From Rubrivivax albus (GTDB taxonomy: Bacteria; Pseudomonadota; Gammaproteobacteria; Burkholderiales; Burkholderiaceae_C): DNA of 64,000 nt. The stretch spans positions 496,001 to 560,000 of the forward strand of contig NZ_SACT01000002.1 in the NCBI RefSeq assembly GCF_004016515.1. Reading direction: 5' to 3'. Within the stretch, counting starts at the first letter, position 1. Each line of letters begins with the position of its first letter. The translations under genes and the position numbers were made by a program. This document shows, piece after piece, positions 1 to 30,866 of this stretch. The notes under the pieces were generated by a model. It was given only the letters and a program-made list of their open reading frames with translations, was not told the origin of the DNA and did not search any database.

Positions 1-942
1 GAGATCATGCGCTTCAACCGGCTGACCACCGCCATCGCGCAGGCCAGCCGCGAGCAGGAACTGCAGGAGCCGATCGGTGACTTCCTGGACCGGCACGGCT
101 TCGGCGCCACCTTCCGGGCCTGGTACTTCCTGCCGATGATCGGCTGCATCTGGTCCTGCCCCACCGACCAGATGCTGCGCTTCCCGGTGGCGACGATGAT
201 CCGGTTCTGCCACAACCACGGGCTCATCCAGGTCAGCGACCGGCCGCAGTGGCACACGGTGCGCGGCGGCTCCAAGCACTACGTGCAGCGGATGCTCCAG
301 CGCATCCCCGACGCTCGCCTTCGCACACCGGTGCGCGGCATCAAGCGCCTGCCGCCCGGCCAGGGCCACGCCGGGGTGATGGTGCGCACCGACACCGGCA
401 GCGAGCACTTCGACGACGTCGTGCTGGCCTGCCACAGCGACCAGGCCCTGGCCCTGCTGGACGACGCCACGCCCGGCGAACGGGCGGTGCTCGGCCGCAT
501 CCGCTACCACGGCAACCGCGCGCTGCTGCACACCGACGCGTCGGTGATGCCCAGCCGCCGCCGCGCCTGGGCGGCCTGGAACTACGAGCGTGCCGGCGAC
601 CTGCAGCAGGAGCAGGCCGCGGTCTGCCTGCACTACTGGATCAACCGGCTGCAGCCCCTGCCGTGGTCCACGCCGGTGATCGTGTCGATGAATCCGGCAC
701 GGCCGATCGACCCGGCCACCGTGCTCGGCGAATGGCACTACGACCACCCGGTGTTCGACCTCGCCGCCATCGAGGCGCAGCGCCAGCTGCCGCAGATCCA
801 GGGCCGGTCGCACGTGTGGTTCTGCGGCGCCTGGGCGCGCTACGGCTTCCACGAGGACGGCCTGTCGTCGGGCCTCGAGGTGGCCACCGCGCTGCGCGCG
901 CGCTGGGCCGAGATGCCGGCCGACACCGCGAGGGCGGCGTGA
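1..942 (+). CDS. COG2907-type FAD/NAD-binding amine oxidase-like flavoprotein, 5' end outside the window
   Basis: The reading frame is open to the left edge, and the first ATG seen (position 7) is internal. The protein lacks the N-terminal GxGxxG dinucleotide-binding fold that the family requires, so this is the C-terminal ~313 residues of a longer enzyme. The text matches predicted NAD/FAD-binding proteins related to amine oxidases: a substrate region (GGSKHYVQRM near residue 88 from that ATG) and a C-terminal FAD-contact region (WFCGAWARYGFHEDGL). In Rhodobacter and other bacteria such proteins sit beside cyclopropane-synthase-like methyltransferases and are proposed to act on fatty acyl chains. 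Its stop overlaps the GTG of the next gene (GTGA), so translation is probably coupled. The family call is firm; the substrate is inferred. Confidence 0.8.
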   Translation, partial: EIMRFNRLTTAIAQASREQELQEPIGDFLDRHGFGATFRAWYFLPMIGCIWSCPTDQMLRFPVATMIRFCHNHGLIQVSDRPQWHTVRGGSKHYVQRMLQRIPDARLRTPVRGIKRLPPGQGHAGVMVRTDTGSEHFDDVVLACHSDQALALLDDATPGERAVLGRIRYHGNRALLHTDASVMPSRRRAWAAWNYERAGDLQQEQAAVCLHYWINRLQPLPWSTPVIVSMNPARPIDPATVLGEWHYDHPVFDLAAIEAQRQLPQIQGRSHVWFCGAWARYGFHEDGLSSGLEVATALRARWAEMPADTARAA

Positions 943-1703
943 GCCTTCCGCCGCCCGCACAGCCCCTGCTGGCCACCGGCGAGGTGCGCCACACGCGGCT
1001 GCGTCCGGCGCGGCACGCCTTCGCGTACCGCAACTGGTTCGTGCTGCTGCCGATGCGCGCGCTGCGCCGGCAGCCCGCCGCGTCGCTGCCGCGCAACCGC
1101 GCCGGGCTGGTCAGCTTCCACGACGCCGACCACGGCGACGGCAGCGCCGACGCGCTGGCCTGGGCCGAAGGCCTGCTGTCCGCCGAGGGGATCGACGACG
1201 CCGACGGCGAAATCTGGCTGCAGACCTACCCCCGCGTGCTGGGTTATGCCTTCAAGCCGGTGAGCTTCTGGTACTGCCACCGCGCCGACGGCACGCTGGC
1301 GGCGGTGCTGGCCGAGGTGAACAACACCTTCGGCGAACGCCACGTCTACCTGCTGGCCGGCCCGCAGCTGGGTTTCGGCCGCGAGCAGCAGGCACGCAAG
1401 GTCTTCCACGTCTCGCCCTTCTGCCGCGTCGAAGGGCGTTACCGCTTCCGCTTCATGCGCACCGCCGACCGCATCGTCGCCCGGGTGGATCACGACGACG
1501 ACACTGGCGCCCTGCTGCAGACCAGCGTCAGCGGCCGCCTGGAACCGCTCACCGCTGCCGCCACGCGCCGCGCGCTGCTGGGCATGCCGCTGATGACGCT
1601 GGGCGTGATCGCCCGCATCCACTGGCAGGCCCTGAAGCTCTGGCGCAAGCGCGTGCCCTTCTTCACCAAGCCCGAACCGCCGCAGGCCTTCGTCTCACGT
1701 TGA
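939..1703 (+). CDS. DUF1365 domain-containing protein
   Basis: A 254-residue protein of the DUF1365 family, which has no established biochemical function. It recurs next to COG2907 flavoproteins and Cfa-like methyltransferases. The N-terminal pattern (GEVRHTRLRPARHAFAYRNWF) and the PVSFWYCHRADG segment are characteristic. The frame stays open far upstream inside the previous gene, but homology begins just after position 939, where a GTG overlaps the previous stop (GTGA). That is the same junction style used through this operon. No signal peptide or transmembrane helix is evident except a mildly hydrophobic stretch near the C-terminus (LLGMPLMTLGVIARIHW). Confidence 0.85.
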   Translation: MSLPPPAQPLLATGEVRHTRLRPARHAFAYRNWFVLLPMRALRRQPAASLPRNRAGLVSFHDADHGDGSADALAWAEGLLSAEGIDDADGEIWLQTYPRVLGYAFKPVSFWYCHRADGTLAAVLAEVNNTFGERHVYLLAGPQLGFGREQQARKVFHVSPFCRVEGRYRFRFMRTADRIVARVDHDDDTGALLQTSVSGRLEPLTAAATRRALLGMPLMTLGVIARIHWQALKLWRKRVPFFTKPEPPQAFVSR

Positions 1704-1711
1704 CCTCACCG

Positions 1712-2941
1712 ATGCACGCCAACACCACCACCGCGCCCCACACGCTGCCCGCCGGCACGCCGGCTTCGGCACGCCGCATCCTGGCCCTGCTGCAGCGCCT
1801 GCCCGTGGGCACGCTGGACCTGCAGATGCCCGATGGCACGCAGGCCCGCTTCGGCCGTGGCGCCGAGCCGCGGGCGGCGATCCGCCTGTTCGACTGGACC
1901 GCCTGCAGCATGGCGCTCAAGCGCGGCGACATCGGATTCGCCGAAGCCTTCATCGAAGGCCGCTGGACGAGCCCCGACATCGTGGCGCTGCTGAAGCTGT
2001 TCCTCGCCAACCGCGACGCGCTGGAGCAGGTGGTCTACGGCAGCTGGTGGGGCGGCCTGCTGGCGCGCGCGCGCCACCTGCTCAACCGCAACTCGCGCCG
2101 CGGCAGCCGCCGCAACATCCACGCGCACTACGACATCGGCAACCCGTTCTACCGCCTGTGGCTGGACGAGACGATGAACTACTCCAGCGCGCTGTTCGAG
2201 GGCGACACCACGCGCCCGATGGCCGACGCGCAGCGCGCCAAGGTGATGCGCGCGCTGCGCGAGGTGCAGTTGCAGCCGGGGCAGCGGGTGCTGGAGATCG
2301 GCTGCGGCTGGGGCGCGTTGGCCGAATGCGCGGCCGGCGACTTCCACGCCCGCGTGGTCGGCCTGACGCTGTCGGACGAACAGCTGGCCTTCGCCCGCGA
2401 GCGCATGCAGCGCACCGGCCTGGCCGACCGCACCGACCTGCGCCTGCAGGACTACCGTGAGGTCATGCAGGCCGAGACCGAGCCGTTCGACGCCGTGGTC
2501 TCCATCGAGATGTTCGAGGCCGTCGGCCGCGAGTACTGGGGCGACTACTTCCGCACGCTGCGCAGCGCCCTCAAGCCCGGCGGCCACGCCTGCATCCAGA
2601 GCATCACGATCCGCGACGACCTGTTCGAGCGCTACGTGCGCTCCACGGACTTCATCCAGCAGTACATCTTCCCCGGCGGCCTGCTGCCCAGCGCCGAGGC
2701 CTTCCGCGCCGAGGCGGCCAAGGCCGGCCTGGAGGTGGTCAACGAACTGGCCTTCGGCGCCGACTATGCCGAGACGCTGCGCCGCTGGCGCGCCGCCTTC
2801 CTGGCGCGCGACGGCCAGGTGCGCCAGCTGGGCTTCGACACCCGCTTCATGCGCATCTGGGAGTTCTACCTGGCGTATTGCGAAGCGGCATTCGCCACCG
2901 GCAACACCAACGTCGTGCAGTTCACGCTGCGCCGACCCTGA
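1712..2941 (+). CDS. SAM-dependent methyltransferase of the cyclopropane-fatty-acyl-phospholipid synthase family
   Basis: About 409 residues, in the Cfa/UfaM class that transfers a methylene or methyl group from S-adenosylmethionine to unsaturated acyl chains of membrane phospholipids. The SAM-binding motif LEIGCGWGALAE lies near residue 195, preceded by the family's NIHAHYDIGNPFYRLWLDETMNYSSALF segment (quoted in two parts: YDIGNPFYRLWLD and MNYSSALF). The FIQQYIFPGGLLPS segment is also typical. A TTG at 1700 would give a 4-bp overlap with the previous stop, like the other junctions. The ATG at 1712 was chosen because nothing conserved lies before it and no ribosome-binding site favours either. 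Whether it makes cyclopropane or methylated/furan acyl chains cannot be told from sequence. Confidence 0.88.
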   Translation: MHANTTTAPHTLPAGTPASARRILALLQRLPVGTLDLQMPDGTQARFGRGAEPRAAIRLFDWTACSMALKRGDIGFAEAFIEGRWTSPDIVALLKLFLANRDALEQVVYGSWWGGLLARARHLLNRNSRRGSRRNIHAHYDIGNPFYRLWLDETMNYSSALFEGDTTRPMADAQRAKVMRALREVQLQPGQRVLEIGCGWGALAECAAGDFHARVVGLTLSDEQLAFARERMQRTGLADRTDLRLQDYREVMQAETEPFDAVVSIEMFEAVGREYWGDYFRTLRSALKPGGHACIQSITIRDDLFERYVRSTDFIQQYIFPGGLLPSAEAFRAEAAKAGLEVVNELAFGADYAETLRRWRAAFLARDGQVRQLGFDTRFMRIWEFYLAYCEAAFATGNTNVVQFTLRRP

Positions 2942-2959
2942 AGCAGCCCCTTCGCCGCC

Positions 2960-3502
2960 ATGCTGCGCCGCCGCCCTCTGCTGACCGCCCTGCCCGCCGC
3001 GCTGCTCGCGTGGCCGGCGATGGCGTCGCTGCGGCCACCCGAACTCGCGCAGGCCCTGCCCGACGCGCGGCTGCAGGGGGAAGGCCGGCTGCGCTTCTTC
3101 GGCCTGCAGGTTTACGACATCCGTCTCTGGGCCCCGGCGCCGGTTGGGGCCGACGACTGGGCGCAGGCCCCGCTGGCACTGGAGCTGGCCTACGCACGCA
3201 CGCTGTACGGCCAGGCCATCGCCGAACGCTCCCTGGAAGAGATGCGCCGGCAGGGTGACATCGCCACGCCGGTGGCCGAACGCTGGCTGGCCGAGATGAC
3301 CCGGCTGTTCCCCGACGTGAAGGACGGCGACCGTCTCACCGGCGTCCACCTGCCCCAGGCGGCGGCGCGCTTCTTCTACAACGGCGCGTTCCGCGGCGAA
3401 GTGCGCGACGCCGGCTTCGCGCGCCGCTTCTTCGGCATCTGGCTCGCCCCGCAGACCTCCGAACCGTCGTTGCGCGAGCGCCTGCTGTCGGGGGGCCGAT
3501 GA
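2960..3502 (+). CDS. Chalcone isomerase-like periplasmic protein
   Basis: A 180-residue protein with an N-terminal signal peptide (arginines at 3-5, then a hydrophobic stretch to about residue 22). The mature part is of the bacterial chalcone-isomerase-like family (GEGRLRFFGLQVYDIRLW near residue 35; FFGIWL near the C-terminus). Bacterial members are non-catalytic relatives of the plant fold that binds fatty acids. The family is often found in Cfa/DUF3833 clusters. It starts 18 bp after the methyltransferase and its stop overlaps the next ATG (ATGA). A lipid- or fatty-acid-binding role in this operon is an inference. Confidence 0.8.
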   Translation: MLRRRPLLTALPAALLAWPAMASLRPPELAQALPDARLQGEGRLRFFGLQVYDIRLWAPAPVGADDWAQAPLALELAYARTLYGQAIAERSLEEMRRQGDIATPVAERWLAEMTRLFPDVKDGDRLTGVHLPQAAARFFYNGAFRGEVRDAGFARRFFGIWLAPQTSEPSLRERLLSGGR

Positions 3503-4794
3503 CGGCCGGCGTCGGCTCGGTCGCCGCCGGCTGGCGCGGCGGGTTGGGCGACGGCCTGCGCTACGGCGCACTCGGCCTGCCGCTGGCCTTCGTCGCGCTG
3601 CCGCTGTACGTGGTGCTGCCCAACCACTATGCCGAAGCCTTCGGCGTGCCGCTGGCCACGCTGGGTGCGCTGCTGCTGGCCGCCCGGCTGTTCGATGCCG
3701 TGGCCGACCCCTGGATCGGCCGCCTCGTCGACCACGGCCTCTCGGGCCCGCGCACCCGGCTGCTCGCCGGCATGGTGGTCGCCGCCGTGGCCCTGGCGCT
3801 GGGTTTCCGCGGCCTGTTCTTCCCGCCGGTCACCGACGGACCGGCGCTGCTGGCCTGGGCCGCGGCGCTGCTCGTGCTGACCTACCTGGCCTACAGCGTG
3901 CTCAGCGTGCTACACCAGGCCTGGGGGGCGCGGCTGGGCGGTGGCGAAGGCCAGCGCGCACGCATCGTCTCCTGGCGCGAAGGGCTGGCGCTGCTGGGCG
4001 TGATGGTGGCCAGCGTGCTGCCATCGCTGGCCGGGCTGGGGGTGGCGACCGCCGTCTTTGCCGTCGCGCTGGCGGCCGGCGTCGGACTGCTGACCGTGGC
4101 GCCCCGCCCGCAGGTCGACGTGCCGCAACCGCCGTTGCCGATGACACTGCCGCTGCGCACGCCGGCCTTCCGCCGCCTGCTGGCCATCTACCTGGTCAAC
4201 GGCATCGCCAGCGCGGTGCCGGCGACGCTGGTGCTGTTCTTCGTGCGCGACCGGCTGCAGCTGCCAGCCTGGGAGCCGCCCTTCCTGGCGGCCTACTTCG
4301 CCGCCGGCGCGCTGTCGATGCCGCTGTGGGTGCGCGCCGTGGCGCGCTGGGGCCTGGCGCGTTCGTGGCTGGCCGGCATGGCACTGGCCATCGCCGCCTT
4401 CGTCTGGGCGGCCACCCTGGGCGCCGGCGACGGCGCGGCCTTCCTGGCCGTGTGCGTGGCCACCGGCGTGGCCCTGGGTGCCGACCTGGCCCTGCCTGGC
4501 GCGCTGCTGGCCGGCGTGGTGCAGCGCAGCGGTCACCAGGGGCGGCTCGAAGGCGCGTACTTCGGCTGGTGGAACTTCGCCACCAAGCTCAACCTGGCGC
4601 TGGCCGCCGGCATCGCGCTGCCGCTGCTGGCGGCCTTCGGCTACACGCCCGGCAGCCGCGACGACGGCGCGCTGAATGCCCTGACCCTGGCCTATTGCGC
4701 CCTGCCCTGCGCCCTGAAGGCGCTGGCCGCGGCCCTGCTGTGGTGGCGCTGGATCCGCCACCCCGACACCGTTCCCGAGGAGATCTCCCGATGA
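3499..4794 (+). CDS. MFS transporter of the glycoside-pentoside-hexuronide (GPH) cation-symporter type
   Basis: A 431-residue integral membrane protein with about 12 hydrophobic segments. The GPH signature RLFDAVADPWIGRLVDHG lies near residues 55-72, and the second half carries a YFGWWNFATKLNLALAAG segment typical of the same family. GPH members usually move sugars with Na+ or H+. In Cfa/DUF3833 clusters such transporters may instead handle lipid-linked or hydrophobic molecules, but that is only contextual. Start ATG at 3499 overlaps the preceding stop, and its own stop overlaps the next start (ATGA), indicating co-translation. Confidence 0.85.
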   Translation: MTAGVGSVAAGWRGGLGDGLRYGALGLPLAFVALPLYVVLPNHYAEAFGVPLATLGALLLAARLFDAVADPWIGRLVDHGLSGPRTRLLAGMVVAAVALALGFRGLFFPPVTDGPALLAWAAALLVLTYLAYSVLSVLHQAWGARLGGGEGQRARIVSWREGLALLGVMVASVLPSLAGLGVATAVFAVALAAGVGLLTVAPRPQVDVPQPPLPMTLPLRTPAFRRLLAIYLVNGIASAVPATLVLFFVRDRLQLPAWEPPFLAAYFAAGALSMPLWVRAVARWGLARSWLAGMALAIAAFVWAATLGAGDGAAFLAVCVATGVALGADLALPGALLAGVVQRSGHQGRLEGAYFGWWNFATKLNLALAAGIALPLLAAFGYTPGSRDDGALNALTLAYCALPCALKALAAALLWWRWIRHPDTVPEEISR

Positions 4795-5324
4795 AAAGAC
4801 GCCTGCTGATGCTCGCCGCCGGCAGTGCCCTGCTGGCTGGCTGTGCCGGGCCGCTGCCCGCCGACTACGCCGCCGAGAAGCCGGTGCTCGACCTGCGCCG
4901 CTACTTCGACGGCGAACTGGTCGCGCATGGCATGTTCACCGACCGCAGCGGGCGCATCGTGCGTCGCTTCACCGTGGACATGACCGGCACCTGGCAGGGT
5001 GGCCAGGGCACGCTCGACGAGCGATTTACCTACAACGATGGCAGCACGGAACGCCGGGTCTGGCGGCTCACCGACCTGGGCGGCGGCCGCTGGGAGGGCC
5101 GAGCCGACGACGTGGTCGGCGTGGCCACAGGCGTGGCCGCCGGCAACACGCTGAACTGGCGCTACACGCTGGCGCTGCCGGTGGACGGCCGCGTGTGGCA
5201 CGTGCAGTTCGACGACTGGATGGTGCTGATGGACGACCGCGTGATGCTGAACAAGGCGGTGATGAGCAAGTTCGGGATCACGCTGGGCGAGGTCACGCTG
5301 TCGTTCACCCGGAAGCAGCCATGA
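4791..5324 (+). CDS. DUF3833 domain-containing lipoprotein
   Basis: A 177-residue protein with a lipoprotein signal peptide: a basic start, a hydrophobic core and a lipobox LLAGC with the acylated cysteine at residue 18. The rest matches DUF3833 (DLRRYFDGELVAHGMFTDRSG, then FDDWMVLMDDRVMLNKAVMSKFG, each shown only in part here as YFDGELVAHGMF and DDRVMLNKAVMSKFG). The family is uncharacterised and occurs with Cfa-like methyltransferases and chalcone-isomerase-like proteins. It probably sits on the periplasmic face of a membrane. ATGA overlaps on both sides show tight coupling within the operon. Confidence 0.85.
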   Translation: MKRRLLMLAAGSALLAGCAGPLPADYAAEKPVLDLRRYFDGELVAHGMFTDRSGRIVRRFTVDMTGTWQGGQGTLDERFTYNDGSTERRVWRLTDLGGGRWEGRADDVVGVATGVAAGNTLNWRYTLALPVDGRVWHVQFDDWMVLMDDRVMLNKAVMSKFGITLGEVTLSFTRKQP

Positions 5325-6088
5325 ACCCGTCACTGAAGGACTGGGCCGGCCAGGTGGTGTGGCTGGTGGGCGCGTCGACCGGCATCGGCCGCGCCACCGC
5401 GGCGCGGCTGCACGCCGCCGGTGCGCACGTGGTCGTCTCCGCCCGCAACGCGGCGGCGCTGCAGGCCTTTGCGCAGCAGCATCCCGGCAGCGAGGCGCTG
5501 CCGCTGGACGCCACCGACCGCGACGCCACGCGCGCCGCGGCCCAGGGCATCGTCGAACGCCGCGGTCGCCTCGACGTGGTGGTGTACTGCGCCGGCACCT
5601 ACCGGGCGATGCGCGCCACCGAGTTCGACCTCGACGTGGCCCTGCAGCACCAGCAGGTCAACTACGTGGGAGCGCTGCACCTGCTCGATGCCGTGCTGCC
5701 GGTGCTGCTGAAGCAGGGTCGCGGACACCTGAGCCTGGTGGGCAGCGTGGCCGGCTACCGCGGCCTGCCGCAGGCGCTGGCCTACGGGCCCACGAAGGCG
5801 GCGCTGATCAACCTGGCCGAGACCCTGTACCTCGACCTGCACCCACGTGGCATCGGGGTGTCGGTGGTCAACCCGGGCTTCGTCGAGACGCCGCTGACGG
5901 CGCAGAACGCCTTCCACATGCCGGCCCTGATCACGCCGGAGGAGGCGGCAGACGAGATCCTGCGCGGCTGGCGGCGCGGCAGCTTCGAGATCCACTTCCC
6001 GAAGCGCTTCACGCTGTGGCTGAAGGCCCTGCAGATGCTGGCCTACCGGCCCTACTTCGCGGCCGTGCGGCGGTCCACCGGGCTGTGA
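5321..6088 (+). CDS. Short-chain dehydrogenase/reductase (SDR)
   Basis: A 255-residue classical SDR. The nucleotide-binding motif GASTGIGRATA is near residue 16. A VYCAG element stands in for NNAG, the catalytic serine is in LSLVGSVAG, and YGPTK gives the catalytic Tyr (about residue 155) and Lys. The ATG at 5321 overlaps the DUF3833 stop; the frame continues upstream but without conserved sequence. It would catalyse an NAD(P)-dependent oxidation or reduction, and in this operon the substrate may be an acyl-chain or carbonyl intermediate (inference). Its stop overlaps the GTG of the next gene. Confidence 0.88.
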   Translation: MNPSLKDWAGQVVWLVGASTGIGRATAARLHAAGAHVVVSARNAAALQAFAQQHPGSEALPLDATDRDATRAAAQGIVERRGRLDVVVYCAGTYRAMRATEFDLDVALQHQQVNYVGALHLLDAVLPVLLKQGRGHLSLVGSVAGYRGLPQALAYGPTKAALINLAETLYLDLHPRGIGVSVVNPGFVETPLTAQNAFHMPALITPEEAADEILRGWRRGSFEIHFPKRFTLWLKALQMLAYRPYFAAVRRSTGL

Positions 6089-6534
6089 CGGCCGCCCTGT
6101 CCCGCCACGACAACCCGCGCGTGGCGAGCCTGGTCGACGCGTTCGAGGCCCTGGCGCCGGACACCCTGGATACGCTGTGTGCGCTGTACGCCGACGACGC
6201 GCGTTTCAAGGATCCGTTCAACGACGTGCGCGGACAGGCCGCACTGCGCGGCATCTTCGCCCACATGTTCCAGGCGCTGGACGCACCACGGTTCGAGGTC
6301 CGGGACGTGGTGGTGCAGGATGACCAGTGCTTTCTGACCTGGGACTTCCGCTTCCGCATGAAGCGGTTCGACCGCGGCGAGCAGACCATCCACGGTGGCA
6401 CGCACCTGCGCTTCGGTGCCGACGGCCGCATCGCGCTGCACCGCGACTACTGGGATGCGGCCGAGGAACTCTACGAGAAGCTGCCCGTGGTGGGCGCGCT
6501 GATGCGCTGGCTCAAGCGGCGGGCTGGCACCTGA
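6085..6534 (+). CDS. NTF2-like (SnoaL-fold) protein
   Basis: A 149-residue protein starting at a GTG that overlaps the SDR stop (GTGA). The pattern LYADDARFKDPFNDVRG, then QCFLTWDFRF and FGADGRIALHRDYWDAAEELYEKLP, is typical of NTF2-like/SnoaL proteins often annotated as nuclear transport factor 2 family. Such folds act as small cyclases, isomerases or binding proteins. It is the last gene of the eight-gene operon; the next gene is convergent 28 bp away. No specific reaction can be assigned. Confidence 0.8.
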   Translation: MTAALSRHDNPRVASLVDAFEALAPDTLDTLCALYADDARFKDPFNDVRGQAALRGIFAHMFQALDAPRFEVRDVVVQDDQCFLTWDFRFRMKRFDRGEQTIHGGTHLRFGADGRIALHRDYWDAAEELYEKLPVVGALMRWLKRRAGT

Positions 6535-6562: not shown

Positions 6563-7009
6563 CTACTTCTGGCCCTCGGTCAGTGTCATGACTTGGAAGT
6601 TGCCAGACTTGTCGACGAACCAGACCTCAGAGACAGTGCCGGCACCCATCTTTGCCGGTGCTGGGAAGGGTGCGGCGCGCTTGATCAACTGAACGATGAA
6701 CGGCGCCACCGCCGCCACGGCAGGCGGACGCCGAACGGACACATCAACCACATTACCCTGCTCGTCCAGCTGGGTCTCCGTCATCATCACGCTGTAGAGC
6801 AGAGGCGGCAGCATTCCCCGATAGATGCGCATCGGGTAGGCCTTGTAGATGTGGGCCGCGAAATCCTTCTTGTAGTCATCGGGTGACTCGGCCTGCGACG
6901 GCGCCGGCGCGCCCTGCGTCAGCGGCGCGGGCACGGCGGCAAACTGCGCGCTCGCCGTGCCGGCAACCAGCATCAGCGCAACGGTCAGGGTCAGCAGGAC
7001 GGTCTTCAT
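6563..7009 (-). CDS. Secreted TonB-C-terminal-like hypothetical protein
   Basis: A 148-residue protein with a clear Sec signal peptide (MKTVLLTLTVALMLVAGTASA, cut after residue 21; the string is one residue over the core MKTVLLTLTVALMLVAG). The remaining part has the layout of a TonB C-terminal domain (PMRIYRGMLPPLLYSVMM, TQLDEQGNVVDVSVRRPP, VSEVWFVDKSGNF). There is no transmembrane anchor and no proline-rich linker, so it is a free periplasmic version of the fold rather than a TonB energy transducer. It is a single gene facing the lipid operon, and its role is unknown. Confidence 0.65.
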   Translation of the reverse strand: MKTVLLTLTVALMLVAGTASAQFAAVPAPLTQGAPAPSQAESPDDYKKDFAAHIYKAYPMRIYRGMLPPLLYSVMMTETQLDEQGNVVDVSVRRPPAVAAVAPFIVQLIKRAAPFPAPAKMGAGTVSEVWFVDKSGNFQVMTLTEGQK

Positions 7010-28514: not shown

Positions 28515-30866
28515 TCAGCCTGCCGTTGTCGCCAGCCAGCGGTCGACGGTGGCCAGCAACGTGGGCAGGTCCAGGGGTTTGGTGAGGTAGTCGGCAAACC
28601 CTGCGGCCTGCGCCCGTTGTGCGTCGGCGGGCATGGCGTTCGCACTGACCGCCAGCACCGGCACCGCGCGCAGCGCAGGATCGGCGTGCATCTGGGCCAG
28701 CGCCTCGTAGCCGCTGGCACCGGGCAACTGGATGTCCATCAGCACCAGGTCGGGTCGCTGTCGCCGCGCCTGTGCCAGGCCTTCGGCGGCCGTGGCGGCG
28801 AGCGCGAGTTCGACATGCGGCCGGTGGGACAGCATGCCCTGCATCACCAGTTGGTTGACCGGGTTGTCCTCGACATAGAGCACGTGCCGGCGATCGCTGA
28901 CCGCGGCGCCCGATGCCGATGCCGCCGCTGCGGATGGCATCTGCGCCACGCCGTCGGCCCTTGGCAACTCGATCCAGAACGTGCTGCCCGCGCCAGGCGC
29001 GCTGCGCACGCCGATGCGGCCACCCATGGCCTCCATGAGCATGCGGCTGAGTGCCAGGCCGATGCCGGTGCCCTCGATGGCGTCACGGTCGGCATCCAGG
29101 CGCTCGAACGGCTGGAAGAGGCGCTGCTGCCGCGCCTCGTCGAGCCCGGGCCCGGTGTCGACGATGTCGATATGCACGCGCTCGGCATTGACGCGGCACA
29201 CGAGGCGCACGTCGCCGCCGGCACGGTTGTACTTGATGGCGTTGGCCAGCAGGTTCAGCAGCACCTGGCGCAGACGCGTCAGGTCCGCCAGCACCGTGCC
29301 TGCCGACCCCTCGCGCGGCAGCAGTCGCACGGGTCGCTGGGTCGCCACGGGCGCCACCATGTTCAGGCACTCGTCGGCAAGGGCGTCGGCATCGACCTGT
29401 GCCACGTGCATCGGCAGCGCGCCGGTTTCCACGCGCGCAAGGTCCAGCACATCGTTGATCAAGGCCAGCAGGTGCTCGCCCCCGCGGAGGATCTGTTGCA
29501 GCCGCTGACGCTGTGTCGGTTCGAGTGGCCGTGCCGGGTCGCTCTGCATCAGCTGGCCGAAACCGAGGATGGCGTTCAGGGGCGTTCGCAATTCATGCGA
29601 CATGCGCGACAGGAACGCCGACTTCGCGCGGTTGGCCCGCTCGGCCTCGTCGCGGGCCGCCACCAGCGCGGCCGACGCCTGCACCTCGGCCGTGACGTCG
29701 GTGTAGGTGCGCACCTGGCCACCGTCACGGCCCAGGTGCGAGCGGACCTCGAGCACGCGCCCGTCCGGTCGCCTGCGCCGGTACAGCACGGGCTCTTCAC
29801 CCGCCGAAAGCCTGTCGGCTATGTGCCGGCGCACGGCATCGCGGTCGGCGTCGTCCTCGATGAGATCCATCTCCTGGCCGAACGCGCCATGCGCCAGCTG
29901 CCAGCGGCCGATCTCGATCAGCGAGGGATGGGTCTGCAGCAGTTCGACCGGCAGCTCGAGAAGCTCGACAGCGCGCTGGTTCCAGCTGCGAAGCCGCAGG
30001 TCGGCATCGAAGCCCATCACGCCCTGCGACAGGCTGTCGAGCGTCAGCGCCAGCACACGCGACTGTTCCGCAGCCAGCGCCATCGCATCGCGCGCGGCAG
30101 CCGAGGCCTGGCGCTCGGCGGTCACGTCGGAGAACAGGCCGATGGCGCCGATCTTGCGGCCCTGCGCGTCGTGGATCGGGGTGGCGTTGTTGACGCAGGT
30201 GACCCGCCCGCCATCGTCCCGCGTGAGCGTGATCTCGTAGGTGTTGGCGCGGCCTTCATTGCGGCGCGCGACCTGGGCACGGAAGATGGCCTCGTTCTCG
30301 GCGTCGACGAACTCCCAGATCGTGCGGCCGAGCAGTTCGTCGTGCGACAGGCCCAGCATGCGGCACATCGCGGGGTTGGCATCGGTGGTGCGGTGCGCGT
30401 TGTCGATGAACCAGAAGCCTTCCTCGGTCTTGGCCAGCAGCACCTCGAGGGTCTGCCGGTTCTCGAACAGCGCCGCCTCCGAGACCAGGCGCTCGGTGAC
30501 GTCCACGCACACCATCAGGAAGCCACCATCGGGCAGCGGCGTGCGACGCGTCTCGATCATGCGGCCATCGGGGCGCGCGCGCTGCACGATCTGATGCTCG
30601 GGCTGCGACAGGCGCTCCAGCCGCCAGGCGACCTCGTGCTCGACCTCGCCCGGGCCGTAGTGCCCGGCCTCGGCCATGTGGCGCAGCCAGCCCTGCACCG
30701 GCGTGCCCGGCGCCAGAAGCGCGGCAGGCAGGCCGAGCACCTCGGCCACGCGCGGGTTGGCCGAACGCAGCGTCAGGCCGGCGTCGAACACGCAGACGCC
30801 GTCGCCCACGTGGTCGAAGACCTGTTCGCGCCCCTGCGCCGGGTCGTCCGGTGGTGTCGTCGTCAT
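28515..30866 (-). CDS. Hybrid sensor histidine kinase with multiple PAS domains and a receiver
   Basis: A 783-residue soluble kinase with no transmembrane segment. Three PAS-type domains (about residues 15-130, 130-250 and 265-395) are followed by HisKA with the phospho-histidine near residue 422 (MSHELRTPLNAILGFGQL), a HATPase domain (NAIKYNRAGGDVRL; DTGPGLDEARQQRLFQPFER; GTGIGLALSRML) and a C-terminal receiver with the phospho-aspartate near 710 (LVLMDIQLPG) and PLDLPTLL after the conserved Lys. It senses a cytoplasmic cue of unknown type. The ATG at 30866 was chosen at the start of the first PAS; the longer open frame upstream lies antisense to yciH. No dedicated output regulator is adjacent. 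Confidence 0.88.
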   Translation of the reverse strand: MTTTPPDDPAQGREQVFDHVGDGVCVFDAGLTLRSANPRVAEVLGLPAALLAPGTPVQGWLRHMAEAGHYGPGEVEHEVAWRLERLSQPEHQIVQRARPDGRMIETRRTPLPDGGFLMVCVDVTERLVSEAALFENRQTLEVLLAKTEEGFWFIDNAHRTTDANPAMCRMLGLSHDELLGRTIWEFVDAENEAIFRAQVARRNEGRANTYEITLTRDDGGRVTCVNNATPIHDAQGRKIGAIGLFSDVTAERQASAAARDAMALAAEQSRVLALTLDSLSQGVMGFDADLRLRSWNQRAVELLELPVELLQTHPSLIEIGRWQLAHGAFGQEMDLIEDDADRDAVRRHIADRLSAGEEPVLYRRRRPDGRVLEVRSHLGRDGGQVRTYTDVTAEVQASAALVAARDEAERANRAKSAFLSRMSHELRTPLNAILGFGQLMQSDPARPLEPTQRQRLQQILRGGEHLLALINDVLDLARVETGALPMHVAQVDADALADECLNMVAPVATQRPVRLLPREGSAGTVLADLTRLRQVLLNLLANAIKYNRAGGDVRLVCRVNAERVHIDIVDTGPGLDEARQQRLFQPFERLDADRDAIEGTGIGLALSRMLMEAMGGRIGVRSAPGAGSTFWIELPRADGVAQMPSAAAASASGAAVSDRRHVLYVEDNPVNQLVMQGMLSHRPHVELALAATAAEGLAQARRQRPDLVLMDIQLPGASGYEALAQMHADPALRAVPVLAVSANAMPADAQRAQAAGFADYLTKPLDLPTLLATVDRWLATTAG

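Follow-up and report, generated by a model that had tools for sequence, protein, structure and literature searches.

A predicted furan fatty acid operon next to a LitR/CarH-type regulator gene in Rubrivivax albus

Introduction

What does the eight-gene operon at the start of a 64-kb stretch of the Rubrivivax albus genome make, and what controls it? The stretch (contig NZ_SACT01000002.1, positions 496,001 to 560,000; 64,000 nucleotides, hereafter the window) opens with genes that a first-pass annotation, made from the sequence alone, took for an operon modifying membrane acyl chains, of the furan fatty acid kind. We propose that this operon very probably turns acyl chains of phospholipids already in place into methylated furan fatty acids, under a regulator of the light-responsive type. 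This core reading is drawn from homology, gene order and a tree, with the enzyme activities carried over from the homologues of Rhodobacter sphaeroides and Rhodopseudomonas palustris.

In the pathway established for the homologues of these two species, UfaM acts as the methylase, UfaD (RSP1091) as the desaturase and UfaO (RSP1090), a protein with a DUF1365 domain, as the furan-forming enzyme, with phospholipid chains as the substrate and O2 as the source of the furan oxygen (PMC7380195, Lemke et al. 2020).

Results

A ufaD-ufaO-ufaM core

By homology, the first three genes of the operon are ufaD-ufaO-ufaM, the known pathway to methylated furan fatty acids, because they match the enzyme roles described and the DUF1365 domain belongs to UfaO (PMC7380195). 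Gene 1 (window coordinates -380 to 942, + strand; 1 to 942 within the window) reaches back beyond the start of the window. Its ATG lies at -380 (L007:11620, L007 being the upstream and window DNA from one contig, with the window coordinate equal to the L007 coordinate minus 12000), its stop ends at 942, and at full length it encodes a flavin adenine dinucleotide (FAD) amine-oxidase-type protein (Pfam PF01593, 4e-16), the predicted FAD-dependent desaturase of 11Me-18:1 acyl chains. Gene 2 (939-1703, +; PF07103, 4e-81) encodes the DUF1365 protein and predicted furan-forming oxygenase; the first-pass annotation had counted DUF1365 among the unassigned steps, which its place in UfaO corrects. Gene 3 (1712-2941, +; PF02353, 4e-84) encodes the predicted S-adenosylmethionine (SAM)-dependent acyl methylase. 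Thus, the three proteins that define a ufa cluster, a UfaD-type FAD protein, a UfaO/DUF1365 protein and UfaM, stand together at this locus, and the cluster is of a kind already known.

A grouping of gene 3 with classical Cfa had been named beforehand as what would speak against this reading, and the tree shows otherwise. In a maximum-likelihood tree of 54 rows, built from 44 chosen loci (43 ufaM rows and 8 second-copy rows), gene 3 falls inside a single clade of 44 ufa-linked UfaMs (support 99/97), a clade defined by linkage to ufa genes, the rows including no experimentally tested UfaM sequence. Outside it stand E. coli Cfa, the sole named Cfa, and the genome's second strong CMAS match (at C33), which has a long branch; these two anchors do not group together. 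The scores of gene 3 against the NCBIfam Cfa models are far below the cut-offs (for example, 274 vs 600 and 236 vs 400 bits), and the five further PF02353 matches in the genome, besides gene 3 and the C33 copy, reach at most 26.8 bits each. A classical Cfa is therefore disfavoured for gene 3, which the tree sets apart from E. coli Cfa.

As a separate observation, eight of the 44 tree loci (L045, L047, L052, L110, L114, L117, L119 and L140) carry a second, distinct CMAS-like gene by the ufa genes; these copies form one clade (100/100) and could be the dimethyl-furan methylase FufM.

Operon layout and conservation

The mechanically called open reading frames (ORFs) bear out an eight-gene, same-strand operon: all eight are on the + strand, each has Pfam support, and together they span -380 to 6534. 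Overlaps had been claimed at five or six of the seven junctions, and five 4-nt overlaps are present (GTGA at 1/2 and 7/8; ATGA at 4/5, 5/6 and 6/7). A sixth, at 2/3, appears only with the alternative gene 3 start TTG 1700, the genes being otherwise 8 nt apart, and junction 3/4 has an 18-nt gap. The arrangement goes beyond chance, since 45 of 81 loci keep exactly these eight genes in this order. The 81 are a non-random set, the window locus and its 80 best relatives, and 35 of the 81 fall short of 18 kb. In the other 46, the chalcone-isomerase (CHI)-like gene is present in 41, the GPH carrier in 43, DUF3833 in 42, the short-chain dehydrogenase/reductase (SDR) in 45, the NTF2-like gene in 41 and LitR in 20. 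The nearest named relatives belong to Rubrivivax and Caldimonas.

Of 150 genomes of the order, 64 have DUF1365. By profiles made from the window proteins, with matches counted above 60 bits, all 64 of these loci have UfaD and UfaO, and 63 have UfaM; DUF3833 follows with 44, GPH with 42, the NTF2-like gene with 41, the CHI-like gene with 40 and a LitR-type regulator with 39. The SDR count of 50 includes SDRs outside the operon (47 of 64 remain above 250 bits), and in most order-level loci the SDR gene has the NTF2-like gene as its neighbour. Taken with the 81-locus counts, these numbers indicate that the full operon is common in the order and no peculiarity of this genome. At the level of the phylum, 60 hand-chosen loci hold UfaD in 60, UfaO in 60, UfaM in 54, SDR in 41, the NTF2-like gene in 29 and LitR in 13.

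Other genes recur near the ufa genes in our full set of 204 loci. In 54 of them there is a gene, mostly on the opposite strand, that weakly matches AurF and FA_desaturase_2 (for example, L059:13847-14758), DUF2878 and a Blc-type lipocalin occur in 15 each, and a membrane fatty acid desaturase in 10.

A LitR/CarH-type neighbour

Divergent from gene 1 lies a MerR-type litR/carH-type gene (L007:10177-11118, - strand), with a MerR domain and both B12-binding domains. Judged by its protein sequence, this regulator is of the LitR/CarH type with the B12-photoreceptor Wx9EH motif, and not ECF/ChrR. The first-pass annotation had suggested looking upstream for an extracytoplasmic function (ECF) sigma factor with ChrR, or for a photolyase/LitR gene; the LitR part of this suggestion held, and the ECF/ChrR part did not, as the locus has the LitR-type gene instead. 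The window LitR carries three features of class I LitR/CarH: the MerR domain, the four-helix B12-binding_2 domain and Wx9EH (motif as defined in PMC8156234), which caps adenosylcobalamin (AdoCbl) in CarH. The motif is present in 72 of 82 LitRs, the window's included (WLRGQMQVFEEH). The ten LitRs that have no Wx9EH all come from the phylum-level set and may belong to class II, which does not depend on B12 (PMC9758184).

Across the 204 ufa loci, a LitR-type regulator is found in 82 (>60 bits), ChrR in 30, ECF in 25 and TetR in 16, and LitR is missing from every locus with one of the other three; for ChrR, ECF, TetR and photolyase the numbers were obtained by BLAST clustering, which makes them lower bounds. 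The same clustering found ChrR or ECF in none of the 64 order-level loci, also a lower bound. We reject ECF/ChrR control here, given the LitR-type neighbour and a strong PF12973 match that lies elsewhere in the genome without a sigma factor. That match sits between SDR-like and amine-oxidase-like ORFs, and inspection by eye of the ORFs in 3.3 kb around it found no sigma factor; the genome also has a second, weak PF12973 match.

Two variations among relatives touch the regulator. A TetR-type gene lies near the operon, with no LitR, in 16 of 204 loci (for example, L080:11162-11770). In addition, a glutathione peroxidase or FolE2 gene can stand between litR and ufaD (for example, L066:7179-7730, L203:6562-7167 and L058:6770-7576), these being two families with 11 loci each among 42 dyad-bearing regions, three members of which were checked with Pfam; the window has neither. 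Genes of these two families at this place would suit a role in oxidative or light stress.

A candidate operator

A dyad, TTTGTC-N3-GACAAA, was derived by 7-mer enrichment in 60 divergent LitR-ufaD regions. Within these regions, it occurs in 32 with at most one mismatch (18 of them perfect; shuffled mean 0.05) and in 42 with at most two (shuffled mean 1.75). The 3-nt spacer stands out, with 32 loci against at most 3 for each of eight alternative spacers. Moreover, none of 113 LitR-less ufa loci has the dyad at one mismatch (Fisher 1e-18 for LitR-ufaD regions against LitR-less loci, kinship ignored). At the window locus, the putative LitR operator reads TTTGTC-N3-GACAGA (L007:11136-11150, window -864 to -850), and TTTGTC-N3-GACA has no second zero-mismatch match in the 5.3 Mb assembly, where about 1.6 would be expected from base composition. 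The genome-wide scan adds only the position of the match at the litR-ufaD locus.

In many loci, promoter-like hexamers point toward the ufa operon after the dyad, and in some a second dyad follows about 63 bp on, just before a start codon (both seen by eye). A scan for terminators in the window litR-ufaD intergenic region found none. Inside the window, a two-mismatch copy of the dyad lies at 28863-28877 (0.30 matches expected by chance). We also tried a box of another regulator. The PplR1 box is reportedly TRTACA-N12-TGTAYA, as described by Sumi in 2020. It was rejected as the operator: with 3 mismatches allowed, L007 contains 4 such boxes (1.39 expected), and all of them lie outside the litR-ufaD intergenic region. 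A literature search on the dyad half-sites, with loose terms, brought up no LitR paper by title among the matches listed.

Accessory genes 4 to 8

The two structure models discussed below were built from alignments of 64 of 65 and 66 of 69 relatives, partial ones having been dropped, and the sequence profiles A6 and A7 from thinned sets. Gene 4 (2960-3502, +; PF16036, 2e-9) has a signal-peptide-like N-terminus, read by eye from the sequence, and is predicted to be exported. Its AlphaFold2 model has a predicted local distance difference test (pLDDT) score of 95.9. It aligns with chalcone isomerase (VIA; Z 17.1, root-mean-square deviation (rmsd) 2.3, 155 aligned) and with AtFAP1 and AtFAP3 (Z 14.9), the first unrelated row being at Z 4.1; as modelled, the protein has the chalcone-isomerase/FAP fold. 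The CHI profile of gene 4 had no matches among solved-structure sequences, and a literature search for chalcone-isomerase-like periplasmic proteins found nothing.

Gene 5 (3499-4794, +; PF13347, 1e-48) encodes a GPH/MFS_2 carrier. By sequence, its best solved relatives are MFSD2A entries (6.7e-16, profile A6), followed by MelB (4.2e-11); hhalign of profile A6 against the window protein returned self-identity only. In MelB, Asp19 and Asp124 bind the galactoside and an Asp pair forms the cation site, the galactoside residues being conserved only among MelB orthologues (PMC8329300). In the alignment with gene 5, Asp19 falls on Ala (34 of 34) and Asp124 on Ser (33 of 34), while the cation-site Asp pair (33/34 and 34/34) and the Lys377 equivalent (33/34) are kept. 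A galactoside symporter is therefore disfavoured for gene 5; since those residues are conserved only in MelB orthologues, the evidence excludes melibiose-type sugars only. Gene 5 combines the two marks that we take for an MFSD2-type carrier, the closest solved relative by sequence and a kept cation site.

Gene 6 (4791-5324, +; PF12915, 1e-68) encodes the DUF3833 lipoprotein. Its lipobox, LAGC, was read by eye from the sequence, and a regular expression finds the lipobox cysteine in DUF3833 proteins of 125 of 152 loci, the copies of loci L164 and L165 being without it. The mature protein (65 sequences) is modelled as a ten-strand calycin-like barrel (pLDDT 95.5), with a designed barrel on top (Z 15.6), then BFA1 (15.3) and DUF3598 (14.8); nitrobindin 2a13 (Z 13.6, rmsd 2.9, 135 aligned) and FABP3 5b27 (Z 9.8, rmsd 3.0, 114 aligned) also align. 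Against solved-structure sequences, DUF3833 gave 9 rows, the best at E 0.15. Calycin-like barrels bind many hydrophobic ligands, so the fold names no ligand, and the matches of the model to CpeS, nitrophorin, spirocyclase and the designed barrel would reflect the shared barrel only and no function.

Gene 7 (5321-6088, +; PF00106, 3e-41) encodes the SDR and gene 8 (6085-6534, +; PF12680, 2e-21) a SnoaL/NTF2-like protein related to ketosteroid isomerase, which its profile matches at 2e-5. After the operon, convergent with its end, lies an ORF of 148 amino acids with a signal-like N-terminus (6563-7009, -).

Two loci, L164 and L165, carry UfaD-UfaO-GPH-DUF3833-SDR beside ECF and ChrR, the same layout as that given by the annotations of RSP1091-1087 (PMC7074977). 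By this gene order only, we infer that genes 5, 6 and 7 are counterparts of RSP1089, RSP1088 and RSP1087. The latter genes have been described as restricted to the Rhodobacteraceae (PMC3818230); contrary to this, we find the GPH, DUF3833 and SDR families beside ufaD-ufaO in the order of the window and in further orders across the class and phylum to which it belongs.

DUF3833 follows the ufa pathway

Of 397 genomes of the phylum, 187 have DUF1365 and 138 have DUF3833. The two occur together in 132 (Fisher p about 1e-51, kinship ignored), and the six genomes with DUF3833 only have weak matches, the best at 1.3e-28. At least 150 of the 187 genomes could be placed for DUF1365 and at least 134 of the 138 for DUF3833. 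In the 100 genomes with both placed, the two genes lie within 12 kb in 59, farther apart on the same contig in 19 and on different contigs in 22, for which the assembly does not give the true distance. Because 41 of these 100 genomes carry them unlinked, linkage alone does not explain the association.

At least 53 of the 134 placed genomes have a CHI-like gene no more than 3 kb from DUF3833 and on its strand. DUF1365 is present in all 53, and in at least 40 of them the CHI-like gene is directly upstream with a gap below 300 bp; the rows behind these counts omit some of the genomes that have no DUF3833 and two distant rows of G344. The pair has no DUF1365 within 12 kb on its contig in 17 genomes among the matches listed, in 10 of which DUF1365 is on that contig (21 minus G003, G491, G260 and G340, whose DUF1365 place was unlisted; G003 is linked). 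Speaking against a strict CHI-DUF3833 pair are the 20 unlinked DUF3833 loci that were fetched, only 4 of which have a CHI neighbour by profile; none of the 20 has ufa genes.

Discussion

If the homologies hold, the operon would work as follows. UfaM would methylate a cis-vaccenoyl chain using SAM, UfaD would add a second double bond to the methylated chain, and UfaO would insert oxygen derived from O2, closing the furan ring. In the dark, the divergent LitR/CarH-type repressor, bound to AdoCbl, would sit on the TTTGTC-N3-GACAAA dyad at the promoter, and light would release it and turn the operon on, as the motifs and the comparative operator evidence suggest. The furan chains would then protect the membrane from singlet oxygen. 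Genes 4 to 6 would form an envelope module, with an MFSD2-like inner-membrane carrier, an exported CHI/FAP-fold protein and a calycin-barrel lipoprotein. Our tentative proposal, to which we give slightly less than even weight, is that this module acts on the modified lipids or their oxidation products, either by binding them or by moving them between membranes; that the SDR and NTF2-like proteins process oxidised products is the weaker suggestion and rather unlikely. These proposals for genes 4 to 8 draw on folds, gene pairing and co-occurrence, and are limited by the R. sphaeroides counterparts of genes 5 to 7 having no fatty acid phenotype. The full combination, furan synthesis with a dedicated envelope lipid path and direct B12-photoreceptor control through this operator in Burkholderiales-type bacteria, is doubtful as a whole.

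Several observations weigh against parts of this picture. The accessory genes are less tightly linked outside the order (DUF3833 in 23, GPH in 19 and CHI in 9 of the 60 chosen loci), and the co-occurrence counts ignore kinship among genomes. Single deletions of RSP1089, RSP1088 and RSP1087 left the fatty acid profile unchanged (PMC7380195), so the GPH, DUF3833 and SDR proteins are unlikely to be synthetic steps; the first-pass annotation, which had the DUF3833 and SDR proteins as unassigned steps of acyl-chain modification, is improbable on this point, and the accessory genes would serve lipid handling instead. The B12 motif of the window LitR reads ExHx2A, x43, SxT, x25, GG against the published ExHx2Gx41SxV/Tx22-27GG (the LitRs of several near relatives read GEPHGLG there), and its PF02310 score is just under the cut-off, beside a lower-ligand-type His and Wx9EH that are both present. 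A BtuR-type adenosyltransferase (PF02572) was not found in the genome; AdoCbl could plausibly be made by the host, since a PF01923 adenosyltransferase is present. As for the dyad, it was discovered and counted in the same 60 regions, which leaves the LitR-less set as the sole independent control, and 7 of those 113 loci have it at two mismatches. It is absent from 28 of the 60 LitR regions at one mismatch and from 18 at two. The window copy has one mismatch and sits about 470 bp from ufaD, genome-wide one-mismatch matches number 82 against 77 for a reversed control pattern, and a consensus scan found no sigma-70 promoter in the window litR-ufaD intergenic region.

What else could the core do? 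One alternative is a cyclopropane or methyl-branched lipid operon, in which gene 3, as an enzyme of the Cfa type, would supply cyclopropane or 10-methyl chains, and genes 1 and 2 would modify these and form no furans. Gene 3 does belong to PF02353 and matches the NCBIfam Cfa models, and E. coli made to overexpress the ufaM of Halomonas also contained cyclic fatty acids (PMC12089945); its scores far below the model cut-offs, its separation in the tree from E. coli Cfa and the other CMAS of the genome, and the way in which UfaD, UfaO and UfaM travel together make this alternative highly improbable. Hardly more probable is that UfaD and UfaO are mainly a singlet-oxygen signalling pair, promoting ChrR proteolysis as RSP1090 and RSP1091 do, with furan synthesis secondary. 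Both of those genes are required for full singlet-oxygen resistance and ChrR proteolysis depends on RSP1090 (PMC3818230), whereas clustering found no ChrR/ECF at the window locus or at the other 63 order-level loci and the strong PF12973 match of the genome has no sigma factor nearby (3.3 kb, by eye).

For genes 4 to 8, the readings differ in what is carried and where. Genes 4 to 6 could serve salvage or disposal, the MFSD2-like carrier importing lysophospholipids with oxidised or furan chains and the SDR and NTF2-like proteins reducing ring-opened enediones. Such a role would suit a best solved relative that is a lysophosphatidylcholine symporter, MFSD2A, which works in the import direction, and it would suit a gene 8 related to ketosteroid isomerase and the SDR and NTF2-like genes adjacent in most order-level loci; the direction and substrates of transport are putative here, and we consider this role unlikely. 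We hold it clearly less likely still that gene 5 moves sugars as an ordinary symporter, with genes 4 to 8 as general stress genes hitchhiking on the operon. Gene 5 is a GPH family member, RSP1089 is annotated as a sugar/cation symporter (PMC7074977) and MelB is not far behind MFSD2A among the solved relatives (4e-11 vs 7e-16). The invariant Ala and near-invariant Ser in place of the MelB Asp residues, with the cation Asp pair kept, argue the other way, for melibiose-type sugars only, and so does the way in which DUF3833 tracks DUF1365 even where the two are unlinked.

We found no description of B12-type LitR wiring with a candidate operator, nor of the CHI/MFSD2-like/DUF3833 module, at a ufa cluster, and other literature may hold one; judged by titles and the starts of abstracts, none of the papers listed deals with control of ufa genes by a B12-type LitR. 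DUF3833, a lipoprotein family without an assigned function in the excerpts of the literature examined, rarely occurs without the ufa pathway (6 of 138 genomes, all weak), so that the protein and its CHI-fold neighbour become testable as furan-lipid binders; if true, DUF3833 would gain a function tied to furan lipids. One amplicon among those described for Erwinia amylovora spans a CFAS and a DUF3833 gene. For lysolipid transport, an MFSD2A-like carrier from a bacterial lipid operon would make a tractable model. Regulators beside the ufa pathway include ECF/ChrR, a published LOV-dependent class II LitR and a B12-type LitR that comes with a candidate operator, and this variety points to repeated re-wiring to light stress.

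Among known systems, the closest in gene content is RSP1091-1087 of R. sphaeroides (ufaD, ufaO, GPH, hypothetical, SDR), beside rpoE-chrR. The ufaD and ufaO cores are alike and, judged by the order in L164 and L165, so are the GPH, DUF3833 and SDR genes; ufaD and ufaO are needed there for full singlet-oxygen resistance (PMC3818230). In contrast, its ufaM lies elsewhere in the genome, control is by RpoE/ChrR, and the five-gene operon has no CHI-like or NTF2-like gene, unlike the window operon. R. palustris has the same three synthesis genes under consecutive locus numbers (RPA2569-2571: ufaM, ufaO, ufaD), and differs in also making dimethyl furan through a separate FufM. The light-inducible ufaM cluster of Pseudomonas, under PplR/PmlR (class II LitR), shares a LitR-family regulator, an SDR, an FAD oxidoreductase and UfaM with the window (PMC9758184). 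That class II regulator acts together with a LOV protein and is considered not to bind B12 (PMC9758184), whereas the window LitR keeps Wx9EH and a B12-binding domain. In this it resembles CarH of Thermus and Myxococcus, which has MerR and B12-binding domains and the shared Wx9EH; the described targets of CarH are carotenoid genes with an 11-bp direct repeat, whereas here the neighbour is a ufa operon and the candidate operator a dyad. Finally, the lysophosphatidylcholine symporter MFSD2A is the best solved relative of gene 5, whose cation-site residues are kept; gene 5 is a distant, bacterial relative, and the likeness is one of sequence.

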